Shown here: positions 8,736 through 32,181 of the stretch, in pieces
How positions within the stretch are numbered: position 1 is the first letter of the stretch
How the letters are laid out: each line of letters starts with the position of its first letter
Made by a program: the position numbers and the translations under genes
The notes under the pieces: generated by a model
Told to the model about the DNA's origin: nothing
The model's input: the letters and a program-made list of their open reading frames with translations, nothing else
Databases searched by the model: none
NCBI GenBank assembly: GCA_020249825.1
Contig: JADCEX010000174.1
Coordinates: 1-32,188 of the forward strand
Direction of reading: 5' to 3'
Source: Roseomonas sp.
GTDB lineage: Bacteria > Pseudomonadota > Alphaproteobacteria > Acetobacterales > Acetobacteraceae
DNA: 32,188 nt

Positions 8736-10403
8736 TCAGTCAAGCATCACGCCGTAGTGCCGCGCGATGCCTTCGCGGCTGAGGAAGCCCTCCTTCAGAT
8801 CCTCGATCAGCGCGGCACGGTCGCGCAGCGCCGGGTCGCCATAGCCGCCGGCACCAGCAAGCCGAAAGCTGACGATGTCGCCGCGCTGCAGGCGCGCTAC
8901 CTCCTTGCTGCCGAGATCCGCTTCCTGCCCGCCGCGGATAAGGACGGTACGCGCCTTGGTGCCCTCACCGCCGCCAAAGACACCCCAAGGCGCCGTCCTG
9001 TGCCGGTCGCCGAGCAACACCACCGTCGCCCCATCGGTCAGCATCTCGATATCCTTGCGCATGCCACAGCCGCCACGGAAGCGCCCAGGCCCGGAGCTGT
9101 CCTGGATCAGCGAAAGGGTATGGATGCGCACCGGGTTATTGGTCTCATGCACCTCGATCGGGACATTGGCGCAGTTGAAGACGGGGCAAAGTGCCTCCGC
9201 CCCATCCTTCGTTGCACGCCCGCCGAAGCCGCCCAGGATCAGGTCGTAAAGGATCCAGCGCTTGCCGGTCTCCGGGTCGATACCGCCAAATTTTGGGTTG
9301 GCCCAATGCGTGAATGCGCCCATGGCGCGTTCGGGTACCACCTGCGCCATGGCGCCGTTGATGGCATCGAAGATGCGCACCTGCAGTGAGGCGCGGCCAC
9401 CGCCGGCCGCCGGGTAGCGCGGATCAAAGAAGCTCCCAGGCCGCGTCACCAGCTTGATCACGCGCTCGATACCGGCGTTGTTGGGCACGTCGATGCTGGC
9501 AAAGATGCGCATGGCAAAGCTGGCGTAGGCGCGGGTATAATTGATGAAGCTGTTGATTCCCGCAGGCACAGCATCGCTGCTGCGAGAGAAGTCCACGGTG
9601 GCCGTGCCGTCGCTTAGCGTGATGTCAACGCGCACATGGATGGGCGGCGTGCCTGGCCCGTAATCATCCATCTGGTCGTCAAAAGAATAGGTTCCCTCAG
9701 GCAGGGCGCGAATGAGCTCCTTCGCCCGTGCCTCGGAGCGGTCGAGGATTTCCTCGATCGCCTCCTCGATCAGCGCCTCACCATAGTCGGCGAAGATCCG
9801 GCGCAGCCGCTGGCTGCCGACATGGTTAGCATTGCGCTGCGCCATCAGGTCGCCGCGCACCTTCTCCGGCAGGCGGACATTGCCGAGCAGGATGCGCATA
9901 ATGTCCTGCTCGAACTCGCCGTTGCGCACAATCTTCACGGGCAAGATGCGGATGCCTTCGGCGAAGGCATCGAGCACGCCCTGAACCGCCTCTGAGCCTG
10001 GCTGGGCACCGCCGACATCGACATGATGGGCGGTGGTCACGACATAGCCGATCAGTGTCTCGCCCGCGAAGACTGGCGCGACCAGGAAGAAGTCCGGGAA
10101 GTGTCCGCCGCCGAGATAAGCGTCGTTGGTGACCAGCATATCGCCGGGGCGGAGCTGGTCGGGCGGGATATAGTCCAGGCAGTTCTTCACGGCGTAGGGC
10201 ATTGCGCCAAGATGTCCGGGGGTAAAGTTACCTTGGGCGATCAGGCGGCCGCGCCGGTCGAAGAGACCGGTGGAGAAGTCGGCGCCTTCGCGGACCGCCT
10301 CCGAGAAGGCGGTGCGCCGCAAGGCTTCGCCCATCTCATCGGCGATGGAGACAAGGGTGTTCCAGACCACCGTGAGGGTGATGGGATCAACCGCCATGCT
10401 CAT
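8736..10403 (-). CDS. hyuB: Hydantoinase B/oxoprolinase-family subunit
   Basis: A 555-residue HyuB-type subunit, partner of HyuA in ATP-dependent opening of cyclic amides (hydantoins, 5-oxoproline) or carboxylation-type reactions of the same superfamily. It starts 'DPITLTVVWNTLVSIADEMG' and carries family blocks 'ALRRTAFSEAVREGADFS', 'NDAYLGGGHFPDFFL' and 'AHHVDVGGAQPGS'. The C-terminal part has 'GPGRFRGGCGMRKDIE'. The frame is open upstream to 10529, but that extension is not family-like. The ATG at 10403 is chosen because AGGAGGTG lies 4-6 nt upstream. The gap to hyuA is 28 bp, so they form an operon. Substrate cannot be fixed from sequence. Confidence 0.93.
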   Translation of the reverse strand: MSMAVDPITLTVVWNTLVSIADEMGEALRRTAFSEAVREGADFSTGLFDRRGRLIAQGNFTPGHLGAMPYAVKNCLDYIPPDQLRPGDMLVTNDAYLGGGHFPDFFLVAPVFAGETLIGYVVTTAHHVDVGGAQPGSEAVQGVLDAFAEGIRILPVKIVRNGEFEQDIMRILLGNVRLPEKVRGDLMAQRNANHVGSQRLRRIFADYGEALIEEAIEEILDRSEARAKELIRALPEGTYSFDDQMDDYGPGTPPIHVRVDITLSDGTATVDFSRSSDAVPAGINSFINYTRAYASFAMRIFASIDVPNNAGIERVIKLVTRPGSFFDPRYPAAGGGRASLQVRIFDAINGAMAQVVPERAMGAFTHWANPKFGGIDPETGKRWILYDLILGGFGGRATKDGAEALCPVFNCANVPIEVHETNNPVRIHTLSLIQDSSGPGRFRGGCGMRKDIEMLTDGATVVLLGDRHRTAPWGVFGGGEGTKARTVLIRGGQEADLGSKEVARLQRGDIVSFRLAGAGGYGDPALRDRAALIEDLKEGFLSREGIARHYGVMLD

Positions 10404-10431
10404 TGCACCTCCTGCAGATGCCGCGCCATGC

Positions 10432-12510
10432 TCATCTCCCGGCCCGGATATCGATGATGAGGTTGCCCGCCGCGCTGAGCGAGAGCACATCGCCCGGAGG
10501 CACAACGGTCGTGGATTCCCGTTCCTCAACCAGGGCAGGGCCTTGAATGCGGTGTGCGATGGTCAGGGCGTAACGGTCAACGATACGGGTAGGAACCATC
10601 CCGCCGCCTTCAGGGAACCAGGCCAGGCGCGTACCAGTCACGGGATCGCTGCCCGTCTTCGTTGCCGGAAAGCGCAAGCCAGCGCCGGCGTGCAGGTTGG
10701 GCAGGGTGGCAACAACGAACCAGTCGCTCACCTCCACGGGGGCCTTCGGGTCGTTGTATCCGTATTCGCGCTTGTAAGCAGCGTGGAAATCAGCGAGCAC
10801 CGTCGCGGCGTAGTCGCCCTCAATCAGCCCGGCAGGTAGCGGGACGCGAATCTCGAAGCCCTGGCCGGCATAACGCATCGAGGCGCTGCGCTCGATCACA
10901 GGCGTCGCGCCTGGCTGCATGCGTTGGGCTTCCGCCGTGACCCGCGCCTCAAGCTCGGCAAAGATCGGCGCGATCTGCGCAGCCTCCGCCTCATTCAGGC
11001 GCATGACGCGGGTCAGGCCGAGATCGACCTTGCGGTCCGCGACCAACAGACCGATGGCCGAACCGACGCCCGCGCCGCGAGGGATGATGACGCGCGGGAC
11101 TTCCAACGCGCGGGCGAGCCGGCAGGCATGCAGCGGTCCGGCGCCGCCGAAGGCGACCAGGGCGTAGCGGCGCGGATCACGTCCCCTTTCGATGGAGACA
11201 ATGCGCATGGCGCGCTCCATATTCGCATTCGCCACCGAATGGATGCCCCAGGCCGCTTGCATGAGGTCTAGGCCGAGCGGCGCGCCGATTTCCCTTGCGA
11301 TGGCCGCTGCCGCTTCATCGCGCCGGAGCGCCATGGCGCCGCCATTGAAAAACGCTGGATTGAGGTAGCCGAGTATGAGGTTCGCATCGGTGATGGTCGG
11401 CTGCGTGCCGCCGCGGTTGTAGCAAATCGGTCCCGGCTCCGCCCCCGCGCTGTCCGGCCCAACGCGGATCAGGCCCATGCCGGTACGGGCGATACTGCCG
11501 CCGCCGGCGCCAATTTCCAGCAGGTCGATCGCCATGATGGACAGCGGCAGGCCACTACCCTTGCGGTAGTTTACCGCGTCAACCTCGAAGCTTGGCGTCA
11601 CCGCCGGGACGCCATCATCAATCGCGCCGAGCTTCGCCGTGGTGCCGCCCATGTCGAAGGTCATGACATGGGTGCAGCCCTCCTCTCTGCCGATCTCGGC
11701 ACACATCAGCACGCCGGCGGCGGGGCCTGACTCGATGATCCGTACGGGCCAGGTTCGGGCGAGCTCGGTTGTCACCATGCCGCCATTGGACTGCATGATG
11801 GACAGTTCCGCCTGCACACCAAGCGCATGCAGCGACCGGTCGAGGCTGTCGAGATAGCTTCTCACCAGCGGCGCGACATAGGCATTCGCGACGGTGGTGC
11901 TGGTGCGCTCATACTCTCGGTACTTGGGCGCAATGACAGAGGAGAGGCTGACGCTGCTGCCGGGCAAGTGTCGGCGCAGCGCTGGCTCCATCAGCCGTTC
12001 ATGCACCGGATTGGCATAGGCGTGCAGGAAGACGACAGCAACACTGTCATAGCCGCCGATGGCGACCTGTGCGGCAAGCGTGTCGGCCGCCGCTTCATCC
12101 AGGGGCGTCAGCACCGTCCCATTGGGCGCCAAGCGCTCCTGCACCTCGAAGACATCGGCGCGAGGGATCAGGGGCTTCGGCTTGTCGATATGCAGGTTGT
12201 TGGTGTCGTAGCGCTTCTGCCGGCCGATCAGCAGCACATCGCGGAAGCCGGCCGTTGTGATCAGCGCTGCGCGCGCGCCCTTGCGTTCCAGGATCGCATT
12301 GGTTGCGATCGTGGTGGCGTGCAGCGCATCGCCGATATCAGCCGGGCGAAGGTCTGGGTGGTGGAAGCGGGCCGCGAGCCCCTCCAGCACGGCGCGGGCT
12401 GACTCACGCGGCGTGGTTGGCACCTTCCAGATCTCGATCGCGCCTGTCGCCGGATCGCGCAGGACGAAATCAGTAAAAGTGCCGCCGATATCGAAGGCGA
12501 CCTGGATCAC
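10432..12510 (-). CDS. hyuA: Hydantoinase A/oxoprolinase-family ATPase subunit
   Basis: A 692-residue HyuA-type protein with the actin/acetate-kinase-fold nucleotide motif at the N-terminus ('FDIGGTFTDF', residues 6-15). A second phosphate-binding block, 'FDMGGTTAKLG', lies in the middle, 'GGGSIARTGMGLIRVGP' follows it, and 'AFGGAGPLHA' marks the ADP site. HyuA binds ATP and phosphorylates or activates the lactam/hydantoin substrate for HyuB. The start is GTG, 3 bp after the aminotransferase stop, so the genes are translationally linked in the order aminotransferase, hyuA, hyuB. Related acetone and acetophenone carboxylases share these domains and cannot be excluded, though no gamma subunit is present. 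Confidence 0.94.
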   Translation of the reverse strand: MIQVAFDIGGTFTDFVLRDPATGAIEIWKVPTTPRESARAVLEGLAARFHHPDLRPADIGDALHATTIATNAILERKGARAALITTAGFRDVLLIGRQKRYDTNNLHIDKPKPLIPRADVFEVQERLAPNGTVLTPLDEAAADTLAAQVAIGGYDSVAVVFLHAYANPVHERLMEPALRRHLPGSSVSLSSVIAPKYREYERTSTTVANAYVAPLVRSYLDSLDRSLHALGVQAELSIMQSNGGMVTTELARTWPVRIIESGPAAGVLMCAEIGREEGCTHVMTFDMGGTTAKLGAIDDGVPAVTPSFEVDAVNYRKGSGLPLSIMAIDLLEIGAGGGSIARTGMGLIRVGPDSAGAEPGPICYNRGGTQPTITDANLILGYLNPAFFNGGAMALRRDEAAAAIAREIGAPLGLDLMQAAWGIHSVANANMERAMRIVSIERGRDPRRYALVAFGGAGPLHACRLARALEVPRVIIPRGAGVGSAIGLLVADRKVDLGLTRVMRLNEAEAAQIAPIFAELEARVTAEAQRMQPGATPVIERSASMRYAGQGFEIRVPLPAGLIEGDYAATVLADFHAAYKREYGYNDPKAPVEVSDWFVVATLPNLHAGAGLRFPATKTGSDPVTGTRLAWFPEGGGMVPTRIVDRYALTIAHRIQGPALVEERESTTVVPPGDVLSLSAAGNLIIDIRAGR

Positions 12511-22986: not shown

Positions 22987-23020
22987 GTTTTTGATCATGG
23001 ACCCGCCATGTTCTTGATCA
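22985..23020 (+). repeat. 13-bp direct repeat, 23-bp period, in the lyase leader
   Basis: ATGTTTTTGATCA (22985-22997) recurs as ATGTTCTTGATCA (23008-23020), 12 of 13 bases identical, each ending in the palindrome TGATCA. The copies straddle the expected transcription start and lie just before the ribosome-binding site (AGGGAGA). They are most likely regulatory half-sites. The first ATG of copy two is in frame with the lyase but is not the preferred start. Confidence 0.45.
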
Positions 23021-23043
23021 CCACCAAAAGGGAGAAAACAACC

Positions 23044-24009
23044 ATGCGCCTCGGCCAGCCTTATCCCACACGCCCGACAACCCGGCTTCGTACATTGATA
23101 CGCGAAGCCGCACCACTCATCATTCCGGGTTGCTTCAATGCCATGTCAGCACGCGTGCTTGAACAGGCCGGTTTTGAGGCTGTCTATATGTCCGGCTACG
23201 GATCATCGCTCTCCGTTACTGGCCTGCCTGATGCCGGACTGATGACCTTGACGGAGATGTCGGAAAATGCGCGTCGCATCGCCGCCGCTGTTTCGGTTCC
23301 CGTCATTGCGGATGCCGATACCGGCTTCGGCAATGCAATCAATGTTGTCCGCACGGTGGAGGAGTATTGCCGTGCTGGTGTCGCTGGCATGCATCTTGAA
23401 GATCAGGTAGCGCCCAAACGTTGCGGGCATGTGGCTGGACGCGAGGTCATTGCGCGTGAGGAAGCCGTTCTAAAAATCCGTGCTGCCGCAAAGACGCGTG
23501 ACGCGATGGAGCCGGACTTTGTGCTGATAGCGCGCACCGACAGTCGCGGTGCCCATGGCGGCTCCCTTGATGAGGCGATCTGGCGTGCCAATGCTTTCCT
23601 AGACGCTGGCGCGGATCTTGCCTTCGTTGAAGGTCCGAAGGACATGGCGGAGGTCGAGTGGATTTGCCAGGAGGTAAAGGGGCCTGTCTTCTATAACATG
23701 ACCGGCATTTCCCCCCGCATGGACCGTGAAACCATGGCGCGGCTTGGCATCAAGATCACCATTCTACCAGGCGCCATCATGCGCGCAGCCTTACTCGCGA
23801 TGCATGACCTCGCTTCTGCCCTGCGTGAGAAAGGCCCCATGGCGGAGTCCGAACTTGACGCTCGCTCCAAGGGGCACCCATTGGGCAATACCCATGTCTT
23901 TGCCGGCTTCGATCGCATTCGCGCCATGGAAGAAAGTTTCCTGCCCGCAGAAAGTGCAAAAAAATATGATGGTACGCTGGGCCATATGCCGCGCGCCGCG
24001 GCTGAGTGA
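23044..24009 (+). CDS. Isocitrate lyase/PEP mutase-superfamily lyase (2-methylisocitrate or dimethylmalate lyase type)
   Basis: A 321-residue TIM-barrel enzyme. The Mg-site 'ADADTGFGN' (D90, D92), 'HLEDQ' (E119, D120) and the lyase loop 'KRCGH' with catalytic C127 (125-129) are all present. The Cys in the loop marks carbon-carbon lyases such as methylisocitrate and 2,3-dimethylmalate lyases. PEP mutases and phosphonopyruvate hydrolases lack it. The expected reaction is retro-Claisen cleavage of a substituted malate or isocitrate into pyruvate or glyoxylate plus a second acid. The ATG at 23044 follows GGGAGA by 8 nt; an earlier in-frame ATG at 23008 lacks a site. Its neighbours are LeuC/LeuD-type hydro-lyase genes. 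Confidence 0.9.
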   Translation: MRLGQPYPTRPTTRLRTLIREAAPLIIPGCFNAMSARVLEQAGFEAVYMSGYGSSLSVTGLPDAGLMTLTEMSENARRIAAAVSVPVIADADTGFGNAINVVRTVEEYCRAGVAGMHLEDQVAPKRCGHVAGREVIAREEAVLKIRAAAKTRDAMEPDFVLIARTDSRGAHGGSLDEAIWRANAFLDAGADLAFVEGPKDMAEVEWICQEVKGPVFYNMTGISPRMDRETMARLGIKITILPGAIMRAALLAMHDLASALREKGPMAESELDARSKGHPLGNTHVFAGFDRIRAMEESFLPAESAKKYDGTLGHMPRAAAE

Positions 24010-24024
24010 CCTGCAAGAATTCTT

Positions 24025-24107
24025 GACTCTCCCGCCAAGCCCTGATTACGCTTTTCAAAACGAAAAGTGATAGTGGAAACAGAGTGGCGGGAAAGCGACC
24101 GAGAGTC
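24025..24107 (+). repeat. Nested inverted repeats forming a long potential stem-loop
   Basis: From outside in: GACTCTC (24025-24031) pairs with GAGAGTC (24101-24107). TCCCGCCA (24030-24037) pairs with TGGCGGGA (24085-24092). CGCTTTTC (24049-24056) pairs with GAAAAGTG (24062-24069) with one G-U and a five-base loop. The two inner pairs share almost the same centre (24059-24061), which is hard to explain by chance. The first two stems overlap by two bases, so they compete at the edge. Confidence 0.42.
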
Positions 24108-24125
24108 TTTGTGGATGATGGGCAT

Positions 24126-24179
24126 TTGGTTAAGGTAGGCCTGGGCAGCTTGCCCGGGTTTGCCCCTGCCCTCAACCAA
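24126..24179 (+). terminator. Second stem-loop, terminator/attenuator-like, before leuC-like gene
   Basis: TTGGTT (24126-24131) pairs with AACCAA (24174-24179). Inside, CCTGGGCA (24140-24147) and TGCCCGGG (24151-24158) form an 8-bp GC-rich stem with a three-base loop, followed by TTT. The inner hairpin looks like an intrinsic terminator with a short T-tract, 75 bp before the leuC-like ATG. It could end the lyase message or act as an attenuator of leuCD. Confidence 0.4.
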
Positions 24180-24232
24180 CACTCTGGCGCGATGCTGTCA
24201 CATAACAGACTTCCAGGGGGGACTCCTGCGCC

Positions 24233-25642
24233 ATGGCCCAGCCTTCACTGACAATGTTCGAGAAAATCTGGCGTCGTCATGTGGTTGTTGACCGACCAGA
24301 TGGGTATACGCTGCTCTATATTGATCGCCATCTGATGCATGATGGATCTGCCGGCAGTTTCGCACGTTTGCGCGCGCGCGGCTTGTCGTTGCGCCGACCG
24401 GATCGTAGCTTCGCAACACCAGACCATTATGTTGCGACCGGCGGACGCGGCCTTGGCGCCATTGAAGACAGCCATCACCGCGGCATCGTGGCAGCGATGG
24501 CGGATAACCATGCGCGATACGGCTTCACCGTTTTTGATATTGGCGATGAAAGACAAGGTATAGCGCATGTTGTCGGCCCCGAGCAGGGAATCACGCAGCC
24601 CGGGCTGACCCTGGTCTGCGGCGATAGCCATACCTCCACCCATGGCGCGCTTGGGGCTTTGGCTTTTGGCATTGGCTCCTCTGAAGTTGTGCATGTCATG
24701 GCGACACAAAGCCTGTGGCAGCGCAAGCCCAAGGCTATGCGGATTGCGGTTGAAGGAAATCTGGGTTTTGGCGTCACGGCGAAGGATGTGATCCTGGCTA
24801 TCATTGCGCGCATCGGTGCCGGTGGCGCGATTGGTCATGTTGTCGAATATGCCGGCAGCGCCATTCGCAGCCTTTCCATCGAAGGGCGATTGACGCTCTG
24901 CAATATGTCCATTGAAGCCGGTGGGCGAGCGGGCATGGTGGCGCCGGATGATACAACTTTCGCCTATCTGCATGGGCGCGCCTTCGCCCCCAAGGGCGCC
25001 GCCTGGGACAAGGCGCTCGCCTATTGGCGCAATGTGCCAAGCGATGAGGGTGCCGTTTTCGACAAGGAAGTAACTCTGGATGCTGCGGCCATAGCGCCCA
25101 TGGTCACTTGGGGCACCAGCCCCGAAGATGCAGTGCCGATCACTGCGCGTATCCCTGATCCCGGCTCAGCGCCGGATGCATTGAAACGCGAAGGGATGGA
25201 ACGTGCCCTTGCCTATATGGGCTTGCAGCCAGGCACGCCGCTTGAAGATGTTCAGGTGGATCGTGTTTTCATCGGCTCCTGCACCAATAGCCGCATTGAG
25301 GATTTGCGGAGCGCAGCCGCCGTGGTGCGCGGACGCAAGGCAGTGGTGCCAAGCTGGGCGGTTGCCGGGTCGGGCGTGGTGAAACGGCAGGCGGAAGCCG
25401 AAGGCCTTGATCTCATCTTCAGGGAAGCAGGCTTTGAGTGGCGAGAACCAGGCTGTTCCATGTGCGTCGGTATGAATGGCGATACCGGTAAGCCCGGCCA
25501 GCGCATCGCCTCCACATCAAACCGTAATTTTGTCGGCAGACAAGGACAGGGTGTGCGTACCCACCTTGTGAGTCCGGCAATGGCGGCAGCGGCTGCCGTA
25601 ACAGGCCGCTTCACGGATGTCCGTAAACTGGCTTCAGCGTGA
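24233..25642 (+). CDS. leuC: LeuC-type hydro-lyase large subunit (aconitase superfamily), probably catabolic paralogue
   Basis: A 469-residue [4Fe-4S] dehydratase large subunit. Cluster cysteines are C350 ('GSCTNSR'), C408 and C411 ('[12 protein letters not shown]'). Other family blocks are '[20 protein letters not shown]' (129-148) and '[16 protein letters not shown]' (224-239). It isomerises or hydrates substituted malates or maleates. The segment after 'YIDRHL' reads 'MHDGSAGSF' rather than the 'VHEVTSPQAF' usual in leucine-biosynthetic LeuC, and the neighbours are a lyase and importers, not leuB or leuA. A catabolic role is therefore more likely: dimethylmaleate, citraconate or similar. 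The symbol denotes the family. It is 16 bp before the small-subunit gene. Confidence 0.9.
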
Positions 25643-25657
25643 GAGGAGATCAGCAGT

Positions 25658-26260
25658 ATGGAGGCTTTCACATCCCTCACAGCAATCGCGGTGCCGGTTG
25701 ATCTGCCGAATGTTGATACCGACCAGATCATCCCCGCGCGTTTCCTTGGTCGCGCGCGGGAGGAACAGGCCCCGGCCATGTTTCATGACATGCGACGCGC
25801 GCCTGGTGGAAATCTGCGCCCGGATTTTCCACTGAATCAACCAGGATTTGCGGGTGCGGGCATCATCGTGGCGGGAAGAAATTTCGCCTGTGGCTCATCC
25901 CGCGAAAATGCTGTGACAGTCATGGTGGATAATGGCTTTCGTGCCTTTATCGCGCCGTCCTTCGGCGATATCTTTTTCAATAACTGCTTTCAGAATGGCG
26001 CTTTGCCCATCATGCTGCCAGAAGCGCGTGTGGCTGAACTGCGTTCGGAACTCCATGCAAGACCAGGAGCGCGCATTACCGTCGATTTGGCGGCACAGAC
26101 AGTGACTGGGCCCGACGGAAAGATAGATCGTTTTGAAATCGATTCCTTCCGCAAGGATTGCCTGTTGCGTGGCGTAGACAGCGTCACGCTCACACTCAGC
26201 CATGAAGGAGAGATTGCGGCCTTCGAGGCCCGGCAGAAGGAGGAAGTTTCCTGGCTCTAG
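25658..26260 (+). CDS. leuD: LeuD-type hydro-lyase small subunit
   Basis: A 200-residue swivel-domain subunit that completes the active site of the LeuC-type protein. The family motifs 'PNVDTDQIIPARF' (17-29), 'GRNFACGSSREN' (about 73-84) and 'IAPSFGDIFFNNCFQNG' (97-113) are clear. The length is close to standard LeuD. AGGAG lies about 10 nt before the ATG. Its last codons, which spell Lys-Glu-Glu as AAGGAGGAA, coincide with a possible ribosome-binding site for the next gene, so the two are overlapped. The substrate is shared with the large subunit and is probably not isopropylmalate. Confidence 0.9.
   Translation: MEAFTSLTAIAVPVDLPNVDTDQIIPARFLGRAREEQAPAMFHDMRRAPGGNLRPDFPLNQPGFAGAGIIVAGRNFACGSSRENAVTVMVDNGFRAFIAPSFGDIFFNNCFQNGALPIMLPEARVAELRSELHARPGARITVDLAAQTVTGPDGKIDRFEIDSFRKDCLLRGVDSVTLTLSHEGEIAAFEARQKEEVSWL
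26237..26246 (+). promoter_or_regulatory. Ribosome-binding site implying a CTG start for the OppF-type gene
   Basis: AAGGAGGAAG inside the end of the leuD-like gene is followed, 7 nt after AGGAGG, by CTG at 26251, in frame with the ATPase gene. No ATG, GTG or TTG lies in that frame near this site. The next possible start is GTG at 26287, which has no Shine-Dalgarno sequence. Because the same bases encode Lys-Glu-Glu, coincidence cannot be excluded. Confidence 0.4.
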
Positions 26261-27315
26261 AATCCGCCTCCACCGCGCTTCTGGAAGTGGATGGTCTTGA
26301 GAAGCACTATCCTGTGCGTCAGGGCTTGCTTGCGGCGATGCTTGGTCGGCAACCCGCGCTGGTTCGGGCGGTGGATGGCGTCAGTTTCCGCATTGCACCA
26401 GGTGAGGTGCTTGGATTGGCTGGTGAATCCGGCTGCGGCAAATCCACCACGGGCATGGCCGTGCTCGACCTTGTGACGCGTACGGCCGGCAGTATTCGCG
26501 TTGCCGGCCGCGATGTTGACCTCAAGCGTGACCGCACCGCCCAGCTTGCATTTCGGCGTGATGTGCAGATTGTTTTCCAAAATCCCTTTGAGGCACTTAA
26601 TCCGCGATTTACGGCGCTGGAGAGCGTACTTGAACCCATCACCGTGCACTTCCCGGGCCGACGAGGGGAGCAGTTGGCGCGCGCACATCGCGCACTTGAA
26701 CGTGCCGGCCTTGCCCCCGTTGAAACTTATGCCTCACGCTACCCGCATGAGCTATCAGGCGGGCAGTTGCAACGCGTGGCCATCGCGCGGGCGATCGGTG
26801 TTGAACCACGCATCCTTGTAGCGGATGAGCCAGTGTCGATGCTCGATGTTTCTATCCGTGCCGGCATCCTGGCGCTATTCCGCAGCTTCGCACGTGATAT
26901 GGGAATGGCCATTCTGTATATCTCGCATGATCTATCGACCATGCGGTACCTTTGTCAGAACGTTGCGGTGATGTACCTCGGTCGTATTGTTGAATACGGT
27001 CCGGCAGGGGCGGTTCTCTCCCGTCCGGTTCATCCTTACGCCCAAGCGCTCATGGCGTCGGTGCCTGTGCGCGGTCGGCGTGGGCGCAAGCGTCTTCCCC
27101 TTTCCGGTCAGGTACCGAATGCCATGGCTATCCCCGCAGGCTGCCGTTTCCACCCGCGCTGCCCGGTAGCGATGCCGATCTGCAGCGCGGTTGATCCGCC
27201 AAAGGTGATGCTTGCCAGCGGCCAGGAAGTGGCCTGCCACCTTATGACAACAACAAATAGCCAGGAGGCCCAGGATGCATCAGACACCGGAACAAATCGC
27301 CTCGCCCTCCGTTGA
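26251..27315 (+). CDS. OppF/DppF-type ABC transporter ATP-binding protein
   Basis: About 354 residues if started at the CTG at 26251, or 342 from the GTG at 26287. The CTG start is favoured since the conserved strand 'ALLEVDGLEKHYPV' needs residues upstream of the GTG and a strong ribosome site lies 7 nt before it. Walker A 'GESGCGKST', signature 'LSGGQLQRVAIARAI' and Walker B 'ILVADEP' are present. The C-terminal Cys-containing OppF/OppD-type tail 'GCRFHPRCPVAMPIC' may bind an iron-sulfur cluster. It energises oligopeptide-type uptake, probably as a heterodimer with the DppD-type protein encoded convergently. It overlaps leuD by 10 bp and the next gene by 41 bp. Confidence 0.9.
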   Translation: MALESASTALLEVDGLEKHYPVRQGLLAAMLGRQPALVRAVDGVSFRIAPGEVLGLAGESGCGKSTTGMAVLDLVTRTAGSIRVAGRDVDLKRDRTAQLAFRRDVQIVFQNPFEALNPRFTALESVLEPITVHFPGRRGEQLARAHRALERAGLAPVETYASRYPHELSGGQLQRVAIARAIGVEPRILVADEPVSMLDVSIRAGILALFRSFARDMGMAILYISHDLSTMRYLCQNVAVMYLGRIVEYGPAGAVLSRPVHPYAQALMASVPVRGRRGRKRLPLSGQVPNAMAIPAGCRFHPRCPVAMPICSAVDPPKVMLASGQEVACHLMTTTNSQEAQDASDTGTNRLALR

Positions 27316-29176
27316 ACGGCGACAATTTCTGAAGCTTGCCGCGGTCACCGGCGGGCTAATGGCGGCGGAGGGATCGCAGGGATTGCTGCCGCGTGCCGCG
27401 GCGCAGGATGCGTCACAGATTCAGGTGGCCAATCCGGCATTCCGTCAACTTTATGCGGAACAACGCGGCTATTACATGCAGAATCCGGCCTGGGTCCGTG
27501 ATACGGTTGCGCGGCTCACCTGGCCGGCAGCGGGGACCAAGGTGCCGGAGCTCGGCGTACTGATTCCAACGACCCAGCCAGCCTGGCTCAATGCATTTCG
27601 TAAATGGTCGCGCGATGGTGGGCAGGTTGGGCTGCGCTACACGATGCAGCAAGTGTCGCAATCGCGCTGGCTTGAAGCGATCGTTACCCATATGCATGGC
27701 GACATTCAATTCCATCCTGCCGTGGCGCGACCGGAACGTGTTGATCCTTCCGAATGGCTCATCAGCCGCGCCTATGGCAAAGACCGTCGGAATTATGGGG
27801 AATGGGCGAATGAGGAATATGATCGGCTGATCGACCTTCAATCAGCCGAAAGTGATCCCAGCAAACGGCTTGAGCATGTGCGCGCGGCGCAAAGGGTGCT
27901 TGCCGAAGATCGCTACATCACCCAGCTTGGCTGGGGACCCGGCGTCATTGACCCCTATAATGCCGAACGTTGGGAAGGCGTAGTGCCAGTGACCGGCTTT
28001 GGCATTTGCTCCTTCGACATGTTCCAGACCTATCTGGGGCTGAAACCACGGCGTGCCAATCAGCGCCGGCGTGTCGTTGTTGGTACGCTTTCACTTGTCG
28101 AGACCCTGAATATCATCCAGGCGGCCAATCGTTTCCGTTCCATCGGACGCATGATCTATGATCGGCTTGCTTACCTTGACAAGGATTTGAATGTGATTCC
28201 CTGGGCCGCTGAGCGTTGGGAACGCCGCGATGAGCTGACCTATGATGTCACGCTGCGCGCCGGCATGAAGTTCCATGACGACCGCCCGGTTACGGTGCAT
28301 GATCTGAAATTCACGCTTGACTTCCTGACCCGCTATGACCGCGGCTTCTTTTGGACAGCGAATCAATACCTCGCCTCCACAGAAATCCTGAGTGAAGAAA
28401 ACCGCACTGTCAGGCTGCGCTTCAAGCAGCCCTATGGTCAGTTCGAAACCTACTTCCTGCTGCTGAATGTGATTTTTCCAAAGCATATTTGGGAAAACAT
28501 CCTACAGGAACAAAATGTGGGTGACGATCCGCGTGCCTTGCGTTTTGAACGCCCGATCGGCAGCGGCCCCTTTGCGATCGGCCGCTATCAAGCGGATACG
28601 CAGATGCAACTGATCGCACGGAAGGATCATTTCTCTCGTCCTTCGCTGGACGAAATTCAGGTCGTTGTGGTGCCGTCAACCGATGGTCTGCTTGGTCGGT
28701 TGCAGGGTGGCGATATTGATTTCGCAGAAGGCGTTGATTTCATGCCATCACAGATCGCGACCTTGCAGCGCGAAAGGCATATCCGGGTGGAAAGGACCAC
28801 CGACATCAATTGGATGCATGCGGTGAAGCGGATATCATGGCTGCCCTGGCGCGATGTTGAGTTTCGTCGTGCCTGGTCCCATACAATTGACCGAGAATTT
28901 CTGGTGCGTGTGGTATGGGAAGGCAATGGCCGCGTGCCGCGCGCAGATACTTTCCTGGTTGATGGCAATCCTTGGACCAATCCTGATCTTCCGGCCCCTG
29001 CCGGCTTCGATCTTGCGAAGGCGCGTGAAATCCTGGGCGATGCGGGCTATTCCTGGGCGGCGGATGATCAGCGCCTTGTCTATCCGCGACCCGATGATGC
29101 ACGGTGGCGGGAGCGTGTGGAGCGGGTCTGTGTACCTGGATTTACCTGGGGCGGGCTCAAGATGATCGGGAGCTGA
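27275..29176 (+). CDS. SBP family 5 (oligopeptide-type) binding protein with permuted domain order
   Basis: A 633-residue periplasmic protein with a Tat-type signal ('ERRQFLKLAA', cleavage near 'PRAAAQ', residue 44). Residues ~90-257 look like the C-terminal lobe of an SBP5 protein: 'NYGEWANEEYDRLIDL' and 'DPSKRLEHVRAAQRVLAEDRY' normally sit close to the C-terminus. Residues ~265-595 look like the N-terminal and middle part: 'IYDRLAYLDKDLNVIPWAAE' (294-313), 'LRAGMKFHDDRPVTVHDL' (327-344), 'GSGPFAIGRYQAD' (429-441), 'AKAREILGDAGY' (581-592). So the order is reversed while total length suits one protein. AGGAGG lies 7 nt before the ATG, inside the preceding ATPase gene. The partner permeases are probably the convergent DppBC genes. 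Confidence 0.88.
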   Translation: MHQTPEQIASPSVERRQFLKLAAVTGGLMAAEGSQGLLPRAAAQDASQIQVANPAFRQLYAEQRGYYMQNPAWVRDTVARLTWPAAGTKVPELGVLIPTTQPAWLNAFRKWSRDGGQVGLRYTMQQVSQSRWLEAIVTHMHGDIQFHPAVARPERVDPSEWLISRAYGKDRRNYGEWANEEYDRLIDLQSAESDPSKRLEHVRAAQRVLAEDRYITQLGWGPGVIDPYNAERWEGVVPVTGFGICSFDMFQTYLGLKPRRANQRRRVVVGTLSLVETLNIIQAANRFRSIGRMIYDRLAYLDKDLNVIPWAAERWERRDELTYDVTLRAGMKFHDDRPVTVHDLKFTLDFLTRYDRGFFWTANQYLASTEILSEENRTVRLRFKQPYGQFETYFLLLNVIFPKHIWENILQEQNVGDDPRALRFERPIGSGPFAIGRYQADTQMQLIARKDHFSRPSLDEIQVVVVPSTDGLLGRLQGGDIDFAEGVDFMPSQIATLQRERHIRVERTTDINWMHAVKRISWLPWRDVEFRRAWSHTIDREFLVRVVWEGNGRVPRADTFLVDGNPWTNPDLPAPAGFDLAKAREILGDAGYSWAADDQRLVYPRPDDARWRERVERVCVPGFTWGGLKMIGS

Positions 29177-29272: not shown

Positions 29273-30292
29273 TCAAACTCTCAGGCCCTTCGGTTGCCAT
29301 GTTGCCGGGTCAGTACCGCGGGCGCGGATTTCCACAATGTCTTCGGTGCGATGGCATGCGGCAAAATGGCCGGGCGCGACCTGCATAAGCTCCGGCTCTT
29401 GTTCGGCGCATAGCGGCATGACGAAGGGGCAGCGCGCGTGAAAGCGGCAACCCTTTGGCGGATTGAGCAAACTCGGCGGTGAGCCCGGTATCGAAATCAG
29501 TTCCCGCGCTTCACCATCCAGATCAGGGAAGGCGTTGATAAGGCCGACTGTATATGGATGAAACGGATTCTCCAGAACGGTATGACTGCCGCGTTCCATA
29601 ACACGGCCTGCATACATGACCACCACTTGGTCACAATTCTCGGAAACCACGGCGATATCATGCGTGATCAGCACCATCGCCTTGGCCATCTTCTCCTGTA
29701 TCTCCTTGATACGGAGCAAAATCTGATCCTGTACAATCACATCAAGCCCGGTGGTCGGCTCATCTGCCACAATCACATCGGGATCAAGCGCAAGAGCCAT
29801 GGCGATCATGGCACGCTGGCGCATGCCGCCGGAAAGCTGATGAGGATGATCGGCAAGGCGCGCTGTCGAGATGCCGACAAGGTCAAAAAGTGCGTCCAGG
29901 CGTTGACGAAGTTCAGCGCCATCCATCGGCTTATGCGCCAGAATTGCCTCGGCTATCTGGTCCCCAACACGATAGACAGGGTCAAGCGCATGCATGGCGC
30001 TTTGCGGCACCATCGCGATATGGCGCCAACGCACCTTGTTCAGCGCTTCCCGATCCAGCGCCAGGAGGTTGCTTCCCTCATATGAAATCGCGCCACCGGC
30101 ACGCGCATTTTCAGGAAGTATGCCCATGATCGCTTTTGCGATGGTGGATTTGCCACAACCGCTTTCCCCCACGATGCCGAGATATTGACCCGCTTGCAAG
30201 GCAAAGGATACCCGATCCACCGCGCGTGCCTCTCCCGCTGCCGTGCGATAGGTGACAGTCAGATCACGAATTTCGAGCACTGCCATGCTCAC
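29273..30292 (-). CDS. DppD/OppD-type ABC transporter ATP-binding protein
   Basis: A 339-residue ATPase. Walker A 'GESGCGKST' is at residues 42-50, followed by Q-loop '[20 protein letters not shown]', signature '[15 protein letters not shown]', Walker B '[13 protein letters not shown]' and switch histidine in 'LITHDIAVV'. The C-terminal oligopeptide-transporter tail '[15 protein letters not shown]' is present. The GTG start at 30292 overlaps the DppC-type stop by 4 bp (GTGA); an ATG two codons later is an alternative. It should pair with the OppF-type ATPase encoded on the other strand, since no second ATPase follows here. Confidence 0.95.
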
Positions 30293-31191
30293 CGCTTCCT
30301 GAGCCTTGGGTTGACCAATTCTTCATAGGCGCGGGTGACCATGAAGGTTGAGATCACCAGAATGGAAAGGCAGATGCCAGGTGGCAGCACCCACCACCAG
30401 GCGCTGCGCATAGCCCCTGCCCTGAAGGCATCGTTCAACATCAGCCCCCAGCTCATGACATTGGGGTCGCCAAAGCCAAGGAAGCTCAAGGCCGCCTCAG
30501 ACATCACACCCGCTTGTACGCCAATCGCAACATAAAGAAAGCTGAGCGGCAGGACATTGGGTGCGACGTGACGAAACAATATGGCAAATTCACTCAGGCC
30601 AGCCGCACGCGCGGCCAAGACAAATGGACGTTCGCGCAACGTGAGTACCTGAGAGCGTATGACCCGCGCTGTAGTGCGCCACAGGAAGGCGATGACCAGA
30701 ATAATGATCAGTCCGATACTTGGCTGGACGATCGCAATGACAACAAGCGCAAAGGGCAAAAATGGAATGCCATAGGCGATATCGGTGAGCCGCATGATGA
30801 TTTCATCCACCAAGCCACCGAAATACCCAGCCAGAAGCCCGATCAGCGTGCCGAGCAGCACGCTTCCGAGCGCTGAGAGAACCCCTACCACCAGGGCGAT
30901 ACGCGCGCCCCATAACAGCTGACTGAATACATCAACACCGTGATTGGTTGTGCCTAACCAGTGCTGCGCCGAAGGCCCGGCCAAGCGTACCGGCATCTCA
31001 TCCTGATCGTAAATCGTTTCAAAGGGGCCATAGGGTGCGGCCCAGGGACCGATGAGCGCCATGGCCAGGAAGACCAACAGAAAGGCAAGGGCCACGCTGC
31101 CCGACGGGTAGCGCATGATAGTGCGCAGCAACCGTTTCATCTGCCATCTTCGAGTGGCATCAAGTGTATGGTCACTCATGTCATGAGCCAT
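30289..31191 (-). CDS. DppC/OppC-type ABC transporter permease
   Basis: A 300-residue inner-membrane subunit with a short cytoplasmic N-terminus and about six helices. The conserved N-terminal loop 'PYGPFETIYDQDEMPVRLAG ... HWLGTTNHGVDVFSQLLWGA' precedes the transmembrane core. The EAA loop region reads 'LAARAAGLSEFAILFRHVAP', and the ending 'SFLGFGDPNVMSWGLML' is typical of DppC. It forms the channel with the DppB-type subunit. It is 21 bp downstream of that gene, and its stop overlaps the DppD-type GTG start. The start among two nearby ATGs (31191 or 31179) is uncertain; neither has a strong ribosome site. Confidence 0.95.
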   Translation of the reverse strand: MAHDMSDHTLDATRRWQMKRLLRTIMRYPSGSVALAFLLVFLAMALIGPWAAPYGPFETIYDQDEMPVRLAGPSAQHWLGTTNHGVDVFSQLLWGARIALVVGVLSALGSVLLGTLIGLLAGYFGGLVDEIIMRLTDIAYGIPFLPFALVVIAIVQPSIGLIIILVIAFLWRTTARVIRSQVLTLRERPFVLAARAAGLSEFAILFRHVAPNVLPLSFLYVAIGVQAGVMSEAALSFLGFGDPNVMSWGLMLNDAFRAGAMRSAWWWVLPPGICLSILVISTFMVTRAYEELVNPRLRKR

Positions 31192-31212: not shown

Positions 31213-32181
31213 TCATGTATAGGTCACCCGTGGGTCAATAAGACCATAGAGAAGGTCGGCGATGAAGTTAAGAACCAGAATGGTAAGCGCCATAAGGAAG
31301 AAGCAGGCCTGGACGATTGGATAGTCAAGGTTGTTCAATGCAGTCACCATCTCACGCCCGATGCCGGGCCAGGCAAAGATGATTTCAAGCAAGACCTGAC
31401 CTTCAAAAAGCAGCGCGAGAGAGACCGCAACATCTGTGACAAGGGGTAGCATGGCGTTTCGCGCAGCGTGTGTGACCACCACCCGCTCCTTCAGCCCTTT
31501 TGCGCGCAAGATATCAACAAAGTCACTATTGCGGACCTCAAGCATGGTGCTGCGGAGCAAAAGCGCCGGGGTCGTGATTTCGCGCGACAGCAGCACAAGA
31601 CCGGGCAGAATCAGGTGATAAAGATAATCGAAGGTGAAAATCCGGGCCAGAAAGGTTTCCCCATCATTATCCAGTGAGACCATGCCGCCTGAGGGCAGCC
31701 AGCGTAGCTGATAGGCAAAAGTCATCAGCAGCAGAATGGCAACAAAGAATGATGGGGCTGAGCGCAGCGCGAGCAGCAAGGCAACCGAAGTACCCTCCCC
31801 CCTCGAACCGCGGCGCCAGCCCAGCATGGCGCCAAGTACGGCGCCAAGGGCAATCGCAAGTACAAGCGCCGGCAATACCATGGCCCAGGTATTCAGCAAT
31901 TTTTCGAATACGATCTCTCTGACAGGTACTGCTTGGAAGAAGGATTGGCCGAATTCAAAAGTCGCCATGTTCCAGATGTAGCGGGCGTATTGCACAAGAA
32001 TGGGGTCATCAAGGCCCCAGGCTGCGCGCTGCGCCGCGATCATCTCCGGTGCGAAATTGCTATCGACAAATATCGCCGTTGGGTCGCCAGGAAGGGTCTT
32101 GAGCACAATGAAAAGCAAAGTGAGGATGGCCCAGATAACGAAGACAAGCGTCAGTAGCCGCCTAAGGATATAGCGACGCAA
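31213..32181 (-). CDS. DppB/OppB-type ABC transporter permease (start near the window edge)
   Basis: A 322-residue permease with the DppB N-terminal signature 'RYILRRLLTLVFVIWAILTL', then 'LPGDPTAIFVDSNFAPEMI' and 'LDDPILVQYARYI'. The EAA loop 'DFVDILRAKGLKERVVVTHAARNAM' region is followed by 'EIIFAWPGIGREMVTALNNLDYP', and the gene ends 'DLLYGLIDPRVTYT', all typical. The start shown is a TTG at 32181 with a G-rich stretch immediately before it. The frame stays open to the window edge, so the true start may lie a few codons outside. Head of the minus-strand dppB-dppC-dppD unit visible here; no binding-protein gene precedes it within the window. Confidence 0.94.
   Translation of the reverse strand: MRRYILRRLLTLVFVIWAILTLLFIVLKTLPGDPTAIFVDSNFAPEMIAAQRAAWGLDDPILVQYARYIWNMATFEFGQSFFQAVPVREIVFEKLLNTWAMVLPALVLAIALGAVLGAMLGWRRGSRGEGTSVALLLALRSAPSFFVAILLLMTFAYQLRWLPSGGMVSLDNDGETFLARIFTFDYLYHLILPGLVLLSREITTPALLLRSTMLEVRNSDFVDILRAKGLKERVVVTHAARNAMLPLVTDVAVSLALLFEGQVLLEIIFAWPGIGREMVTALNNLDYPIVQACFFLMALTILVLNFIADLLYGLIDPRVTYT

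Follow-up and report, generated by a model that had tools for sequence, protein, structure and literature searches.

A probable natural circular permutation in a family-5 solute-binding protein encoded beside Opp/Dpp-type transporter genes in Roseomonas

Introduction

Circularly permuted binding proteins are, to our knowledge, familiar mainly as engineered sensors. A natural case is Tp0684 (TpMglB-2) of Treponema pallidum, assigned to "Cluster Bc", which is circularly permuted and still binds glucose and closes; its topology is also found in relatives, most of which are probably tethered (excerpts of PMC4990184). Outside the binding proteins, the cpRAS and YRG GTPases show that one fold can be permuted naturally at two cut points (excerpts of PMC2430557). 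Among the matches listed from the open-licence literature, none describes a permuted family-5 solute-binding protein (SBP5), in keeping with the remark of a first-pass annotation that no described example was known to it, and the excerpts of PMC2588589 and PMC2395249 contain nothing on permuted family-5 proteins.

Here we analyze a stretch of 32,188 nucleotides from a Roseomonas sp. assembly (GCA_020249825.1, contig JADCEX010000174.1), called the window throughout. The first-pass annotation, made from its letters, had read one of its genes as an SBP5 gene in which the C-terminal part of the protein precedes the N-terminal part.

Results

Swapped segment order in the window protein

The gene and its surroundings are laid out in Table 1. 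As the first-pass annotation had stated for a single frame with the length of one protein, the 633-aa ORF is open throughout. An export signal, as expected of SBP_bac_5 members, is recognized by the NCBIfam model TIGR01409 (19.6 bits against a cut-off of 16.7), while the Pfam model TAT_signal stays below its cut-off (17.4 against 22.7 bits); no lipobox was seen by eye.

Table 1. Coordinates of the window gene, its parts and its transporter neighbors
Feature	Position	Strand	Basis
Family-5 solute-binding protein, circularly permuted (predicted), 633 aa	27275..29176	+	open uninterrupted ORF and profile searches
Tat signal peptide region, residues 1-44	27275..27406	+	TIGR01409; signal end set by eye
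N-terminal extension, residues 45-87	27407..27535	+	alignments; in L006 and L007, missing in shorter relatives
C-segment, residues 88-258 (last in normal SBP5)	27536..28048	+	profiles; normal-only match 96-215, iE 3e-13
Joint of ancestral C and N termini, residues 259-263	28049..28063	+	segment limits
N-segment, residues 264-601 (first in normal SBP5)	28064..29077	+	Pfam and profiles
C-terminal tail, residues 602-633	29078..29173	+	alignment; common to L006 and L007, many relatives shorter
DppF/OppF-like ATP-binding subunit	26287..27315	+	below curated cut-offs among the matches listed; overlaps binding-protein ORF start by 41 bases
OppD-like ATP-binding subunit	29273..30292	-	below curated cut-offs among the matches listed
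OppC-like permease	30289..31191	-	BPD_transp_1 and OppC_N
OppB-like permease	31213..32181	-	BPD_transp_1 and BPD_transp_1_N

Pfam SBP_bac_5 matches the protein far above its cut-off (163.4 versus 32.4 bits) in one stretch, residues 307 to 601, which corresponds to positions 2 to 290 of the 368 in the profile. When the segments are restored to normal order (residues 263 to 600, then 89 to 262), a single stretch of 172.9 bits covers profile positions 2 to 341. In PDB, the best matches are family-5 chains whose aligned part begins close to their start and reaches about residue 345; the part of the query that they match starts at about residues 265 to 294. In 8 of 19 chains (e.g., DppA 1dpp, 32 to 468), the best stretch of the restored-order sequence extends past the N-segment into the C-segment; in the other 11, the top scorer included, it ends at or before the end of the N-segment. 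Among the best 60 of 109 PDB rows, no solved chain has a best stretch that begins before profile position 210, so none of these stretches spans the joint.

The C-segment alone has no Pfam match and only marginal matches in PDB, the best being to the C-terminal portion of DppE with an E of 0.019; with a first half so divergent, relatives had to decide. Profiles built from 63 normal-order proteins only, whose segment limits had been set with permuted-family profiles, place the C part at residues 96 to 215 (iE of 3e-13) and the N part at residues 284 to 592 (iE of 1e-62). A separate comparison of the two segments with the SBP5 model, as proposed in the first-pass annotation, thus succeeds in Pfam for the N-segment, whereas the C-segment is found by the normal-only profile and, on its own, not by Pfam. 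The segment limits given there (C at about 90 to 257, N at about 265 to 595) shift slightly, to about 88 to 258 and 264 to 601. In L008, which is 28% identical over residues 143 to 596, Pfam matches in two stretches (best at profile positions 2 to 286); its front segment alone reaches positions 288 to 366 with an E-value of 0.004, below the Pfam cut-off, and the re-ordered protein gives a single stretch from 2 to 366 with 210.5 bits.

Members of SBP_bac_5 carry the N-segment before the C-segment. The window protein has C before N, and we therefore file it as a permuted variant rather than as an ordinary member of the family. These comparisons, all of them between sequences, support the reading of the ORF as a single complete SBP5 protein whose chain is circularly permuted.

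The order recurs across ORFs, plasmids and genomes

Segment profiles matched 197 ORFs of at least 380 aa from the fetched loci, a set in which some genes appear as near-copies or as overlapping ORFs: 83 read C-N, 83 N-C and 12 N'-C-N'', none had another order, a regularity beyond chance, and 19 were incomplete or partial and left unclassed. We call the C-N order with the window-like cut CP1 and the N'-C-N'' order, which has another cut point, CP2; after thinning, 57 CP1, 63 N-C and 9 CP2 proteins were left. The normal-only profiles reproduced the C-N order in all 83 CP1 ORFs and the second permuted order in all 12 CP2 ORFs. Two plasmids served as an internal control: each has one permuted protein that scores more than 720 bits over the joint, and the 13 other SBP5 genes fetched from them comprise 12 in N-C order and one with an N-segment only. 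Pfam and NCBIfam match the tested permuted proteins only partly or in two stretches, and the 9 fetched annotated records name them plainly "ABC transporter substrate-binding protein", so that the rewiring is invisible in annotation.

Full-length matches at 97 to 100% identity are present in five of 59 genomes, the window's own counted in both numbers; full-length homologues at 57 to 59% identity occur in one genome of the same genus (G014) and one of the same class (G045), and G035 has a 536-aa protein of the same order with 28% identity over residues 143 to 596. Four near-copies with the same order (L031 to L034) come from MAG records named Roseomonas or Alphaproteobacteria. A tblastn search of plasmids gave single-piece matches across the joint at 22.7 to 30.5% identity in haloarchaea (Natrinema, Haladaptatus, Halalkalicoccus and others) and in alphaproteobacteria (Neorhizobium, Roseomonas, Ketogulonicigenium, Nitratireductor and Maritalea); all of the best 40 of 2353 matching records span the joint. 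An alignment of 13 members is collinear from signal to stop, the aligned plasmid copies being 21 to 28% identical. On the Neorhizobium galegae plasmid pNgVX (L053), the permuted gene is frameshifted in the C-segment and annotated as two genes.

The census counts that follow are lower bounds because the larger searches scored only a handful of candidates in each genome, and group names beyond the record titles are those that we take to apply. In the window's family, 36 of 299 genomes match at E ≤ 1e-75 and 34 of 299 span the joint; G1005 and G1052 match only behind it, and the copy of G1056 (L171) spans it with an inner stop. The phylum of a Methanosarcina record has matches at E ≤ 1e-70 in 32 of 294 genomes, all spanning the joint; three genomes there (G724, G730 and G762) have four matches each to the permuted profile, which indicates paralogues of the family. 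An even sample of the window's phylum yielded one match in 398 genomes, the window's own, and the phylum of a Bathyarchaeota record has the window's order in 4 of 200 genomes. Among viral contigs, one scan found 5 loci with the N-segment only and further scans found none; in 24 phage records with a match, coverage of the query stayed below 80%, and the best 5 of the 24 were all partial.

The window gene is thus not the lone oddity that it might seem: homologues of the same order, for which the first-pass annotation had suggested a search, were found in Roseomonas MAGs and on alphaproteobacterial and haloarchaeal plasmids. Its proposal of a circularly permuted SBP5 is borne out by the re-ordered Pfam matches, the normal-only profiles and the order kept in relatives.

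Between the window gene and two of its near-copies (L032 and L034), dN is 0.017 to 0.018 and dS is 0.77 to 0.84, with a dN/dS of about 0.02 in both segments. Residues 240 to 290, across the joint, hold 0 nonsynonymous differences against 14 (L032) and 17 (L034) synonymous ones, a pattern indicating that the joint is under purifying selection.

The cut lies within lobe 2

The N-segment ends directly after the AKAREILGDAGY helix. Its match to AppA ends at about residue 348, and that of the C-segment starts at about residue 360. In YejA, lobe 1 comprises residues 1 to 286 and 540 to 579, and lobe 2 is one continuous middle piece, residues 287 to 539 (excerpts of PMC10924461). In the model of the window protein, the rigid match to several SBPs ends about 97 residues sooner (e.g., 8ch1, model residues 219 to 465 at 3.2 Å, versus 1xoc, 211 to 562 at 6.5 Å). 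These match limits, the lobe limits of YejA and the end of the rigid match place the cut inside lobe 2 and not at a lobe boundary, where the first-pass annotation had put the new termini. The moved segment would carry ligand anchors: residues R383 and D436 of DppA hold the peptide (excerpts of PMC12136057) and, if precursor numbering is assumed, lie beyond residue 368 of 8z1y_F, where the match of the N-segment ends.

The AlphaFold model has a pLDDT of 59.5 and a pTM of 0.54, with the C-segment mostly below 60 and long stretches below 50, and is too weak to bear out a complete fold. It was computed from an alignment (A3) of the window protein, sequences from related loci and normal-order proteins split into their N and C parts, some of which had misplaced ends; alternative alignments (A2, A4 and A6) were set aside for misplaced pieces (nine C-pieces in A6). 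In the alignment used for the CP2 protein L040 (A5), some fragment ends strayed. Fold comparisons were made with sequential aligners throughout.

Gene neighborhood and hints at a ligand

The window gene sits between a DppF/OppF-like ATPase gene and a convergent OppD-OppC-OppB set, the four partner genes being split over two strands; the protein is thus encoded with permease and ATPase genes of the Opp/Dpp type. Such genes are close by in all nine annotated relatives (ten were fetched; L054 comes without annotation), and we infer a role as the binding subunit of an Opp/Dpp-type importer.

An arginine before a D/E-P pair (R155 in the window protein) is found in 41 of 57 CP1 rows versus 7 of 63 normal rows, in a gappy column, and gives a weak hint at an acidic ligand. 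Among the nine annotated relatives, an M28 peptidase gene is nearby in three (L049 from Roseomonas haemaphysalidis, L053 and L055) and hydantoinase/oxoprolinase genes in two (L049 and L055). From R155 and the nearby hydantoinase/oxoprolinase and M20/M28 hydrolase genes, that is, from one gappy column and a loose gene neighborhood, we would guess at an acidic or N-blocked amino-acid-like substrate.

Elsewhere in the window, translations suggest an N-carbamoyl amino-acid hydrolase (M20)-like gene and a hydantoinase/oxoprolinase A/B-like pair (298 to 1542 and 8736 to 12510); genes of the N-carbamoyl hydrolase/hydantoinase type also flank permuted SBPs on plasmids (L049 and L055). Ahead of the transporter genes (23008 to 26260) lie a gene of the PEP-mutase/isocitrate-lyase family and a LeuC/LeuD-like pair. 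By eye, the homologues at 57 to 59% identity (L006/L217 and L218) have such a lyase nearby, and one of them also a LeuD-like frame. The lyase and LeuC/LeuD-like genes may point to a branched dicarboxylate pathway.

A second cut point and a further group

Of 200 genomes from the phylum of a Bathyarchaeota record, 11 encode CP2 proteins, which are cut inside lobe 1 (loci L173 to L182, L092, L103 and L040). These proteins usually carry a C-terminal extension with a membrane helix; L176 has a dockerin-like end, by eye. A further CP1 group, the L140 type (L140/L213 and L214 to L216), occurs in 4 of 59 genomes of one archaeal class, and both profile sets read all four proteins as C-N. L140 itself has a PGF-CTERM sorting domain, above its cut-off, behind the permuted core at the new C terminus, while the remaining three have no PGF-CTERM and stop close to the cut (by eye).

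In a tree of 82 re-ordered proteins, whose bootstrap had not settled, CP2 forms one clade (100/94) and L140 groups with the normal-order proteins L018, L101 and L106 (100/98); unconstrained, the tree requires 4 changes for CP1 and 1 for CP2. A single origin of all CP1, with the window group and L140 held together, was rejected (AU p of 0.0075) in a test chosen after the tree was known. Neither the window group held together with the CP1 proteins of the Bathyarchaeota-record phylum (L086 and L095; p of 0.618) nor the window group as the sole constraint (p of 0.607) was rejected. Permutation of SBP5 would thus have at least two separate origins, and probably three.

Discussion

We give a probability of about 0.88 to the reading that the product of the window gene is a working SBP, with a circularly permuted chain, that serves an Opp/Dpp-type ABC importer. 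The ancestral C terminus would be linked through about five residues to the ancestral N terminus, the new termini would open inside lobe 2, between the helix ending in the AGY motif and the next strand, and a Tat signal would have been set ahead of the new start. The old ends should be easy to join, because the N and C termini of oligopeptide-binding proteins lie close together in domain I (excerpts of PMC10924461). With these ends joined and the chain opened within lobe 2, neither the lobes nor the hinge would be lost, and the protein would fold as a usual two-lobed SBP, close on its ligand as other SBPs (e.g., DppA) do and deliver it to the permease encoded alongside.

How could such a gene arise? 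Tandem duplication of one SBP gene followed by trimming at both ends would yield the order, and so would the fusion of complementary halves of two neighboring SBP genes. The latter, in which the C-half of one gene was joined to the N-half of a neighboring paralogue, would still produce a functional permuted SBP, built from two ancestral chains, and we regard it as a possible but less favored origin. SBP5 genes are abundant (60 Pfam places in one genome), and the top normal matches of the two segments differ in most of nine permuted proteins tested, L140 among the cases (L101 and L107 for N, L105 and L111 for C). However, rankings of the C-segments are noisy because these segments are very divergent, that of the window matching normal proteins at E-values of 6e-6 or worse, and N and C rankings do correlate, weakly for L140 (rho of 0.33, p of 0.014) and more strongly for L008 (rho of 0.70, 10 proteins).

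Other explanations deny that a working permuted protein exists. If two incomplete SBP remnants had fused into a decaying or structural protein with no binding role, one would understand why neither segment alone is a whole SBP, why the AlphaFold model is weak, and why the Neorhizobium copy is frameshifted and L171 of the window's family has an inner stop. Decay of this kind is very improbable given the dN/dS of about 0.02 in both segments, the joint free of nonsynonymous changes, the complementary coverage of the SBP5 profile with each part present once, and the ABC genes near all nine annotated relatives. An error of assembly or binning, or a rearrangement confined to a single strain, comes to mind since the window genome is fragmented (420 contigs) and has 7.8% contamination. 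The order recurs, however, in other assemblies and in plasmid records (mostly labelled complete), and the joint is under purifying selection; this rival is thus negligible, and an assembly error, named in the first-pass annotation as what would undo its proposal, can be set aside. We thus retain the reading as a working, circularly permuted SBP.

New here are also the second permutation, CP2, and the further separate group of the L140 type. We think it fairly probable that the family-5 fold has been permuted naturally at least three separate times, as CP1 in its window and L140 types and as CP2; the window type would comprise alphaproteobacteria and haloarchaea and perhaps the four copies of the Bathyarchaeota-record phylum. 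The fold would then be repeatedly rewirable in evolution, and permutation would also move the tether to another site of the protein in the anchored archaeal copies. Moving a membrane tether was considered as a general purpose of permutation and rejected: no anchor is visible in the window protein, which carries a Tat signal, and PGF-CTERM is missing from all but one of the four L140-type proteins.

In this large importer family, nature appears to offer permuted lineages that are conserved, have two cut points and can be compared with normal-order relatives, so that effects of chain order on folding, export, tethering and permease docking become testable. The natural cut sites would be selection-tested sites for sensor design.

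How does the window protein relate to the systems already described? Like TpMglB-2, it is read as an ABC-importer binding protein whose circular permutation arose naturally; however, TpMglB-2 is a Type I, cluster B protein permuted in strands of its N-lobe (excerpts of PMC4990184), and the window protein belongs with cluster C. Pfam finds only SBP_bac_5 and TAT_signal in it at E-values up to 1, with no cluster B (Type I) homology, so that the permuted order that it has in common with Cluster Bc is an analogy only. Most relatives of TpMglB-2 are probably tethered (excerpts of PMC4990184); in the window protein, which carries a Tat signal, no tether is visible. With cpRAS and YRG, the SBP5 proteins share two natural cut points, but those are GTPase domains of an unrelated fold (excerpts of PMC2430557). 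Closest are the SBP_bac_5/cluster C proteins DppA, OppA, AppA and NikA, to which both segments are homologous and which likewise go with permease and ATPase genes of the Opp/Dpp type; the window protein differs from them in the swapped order of its segments.
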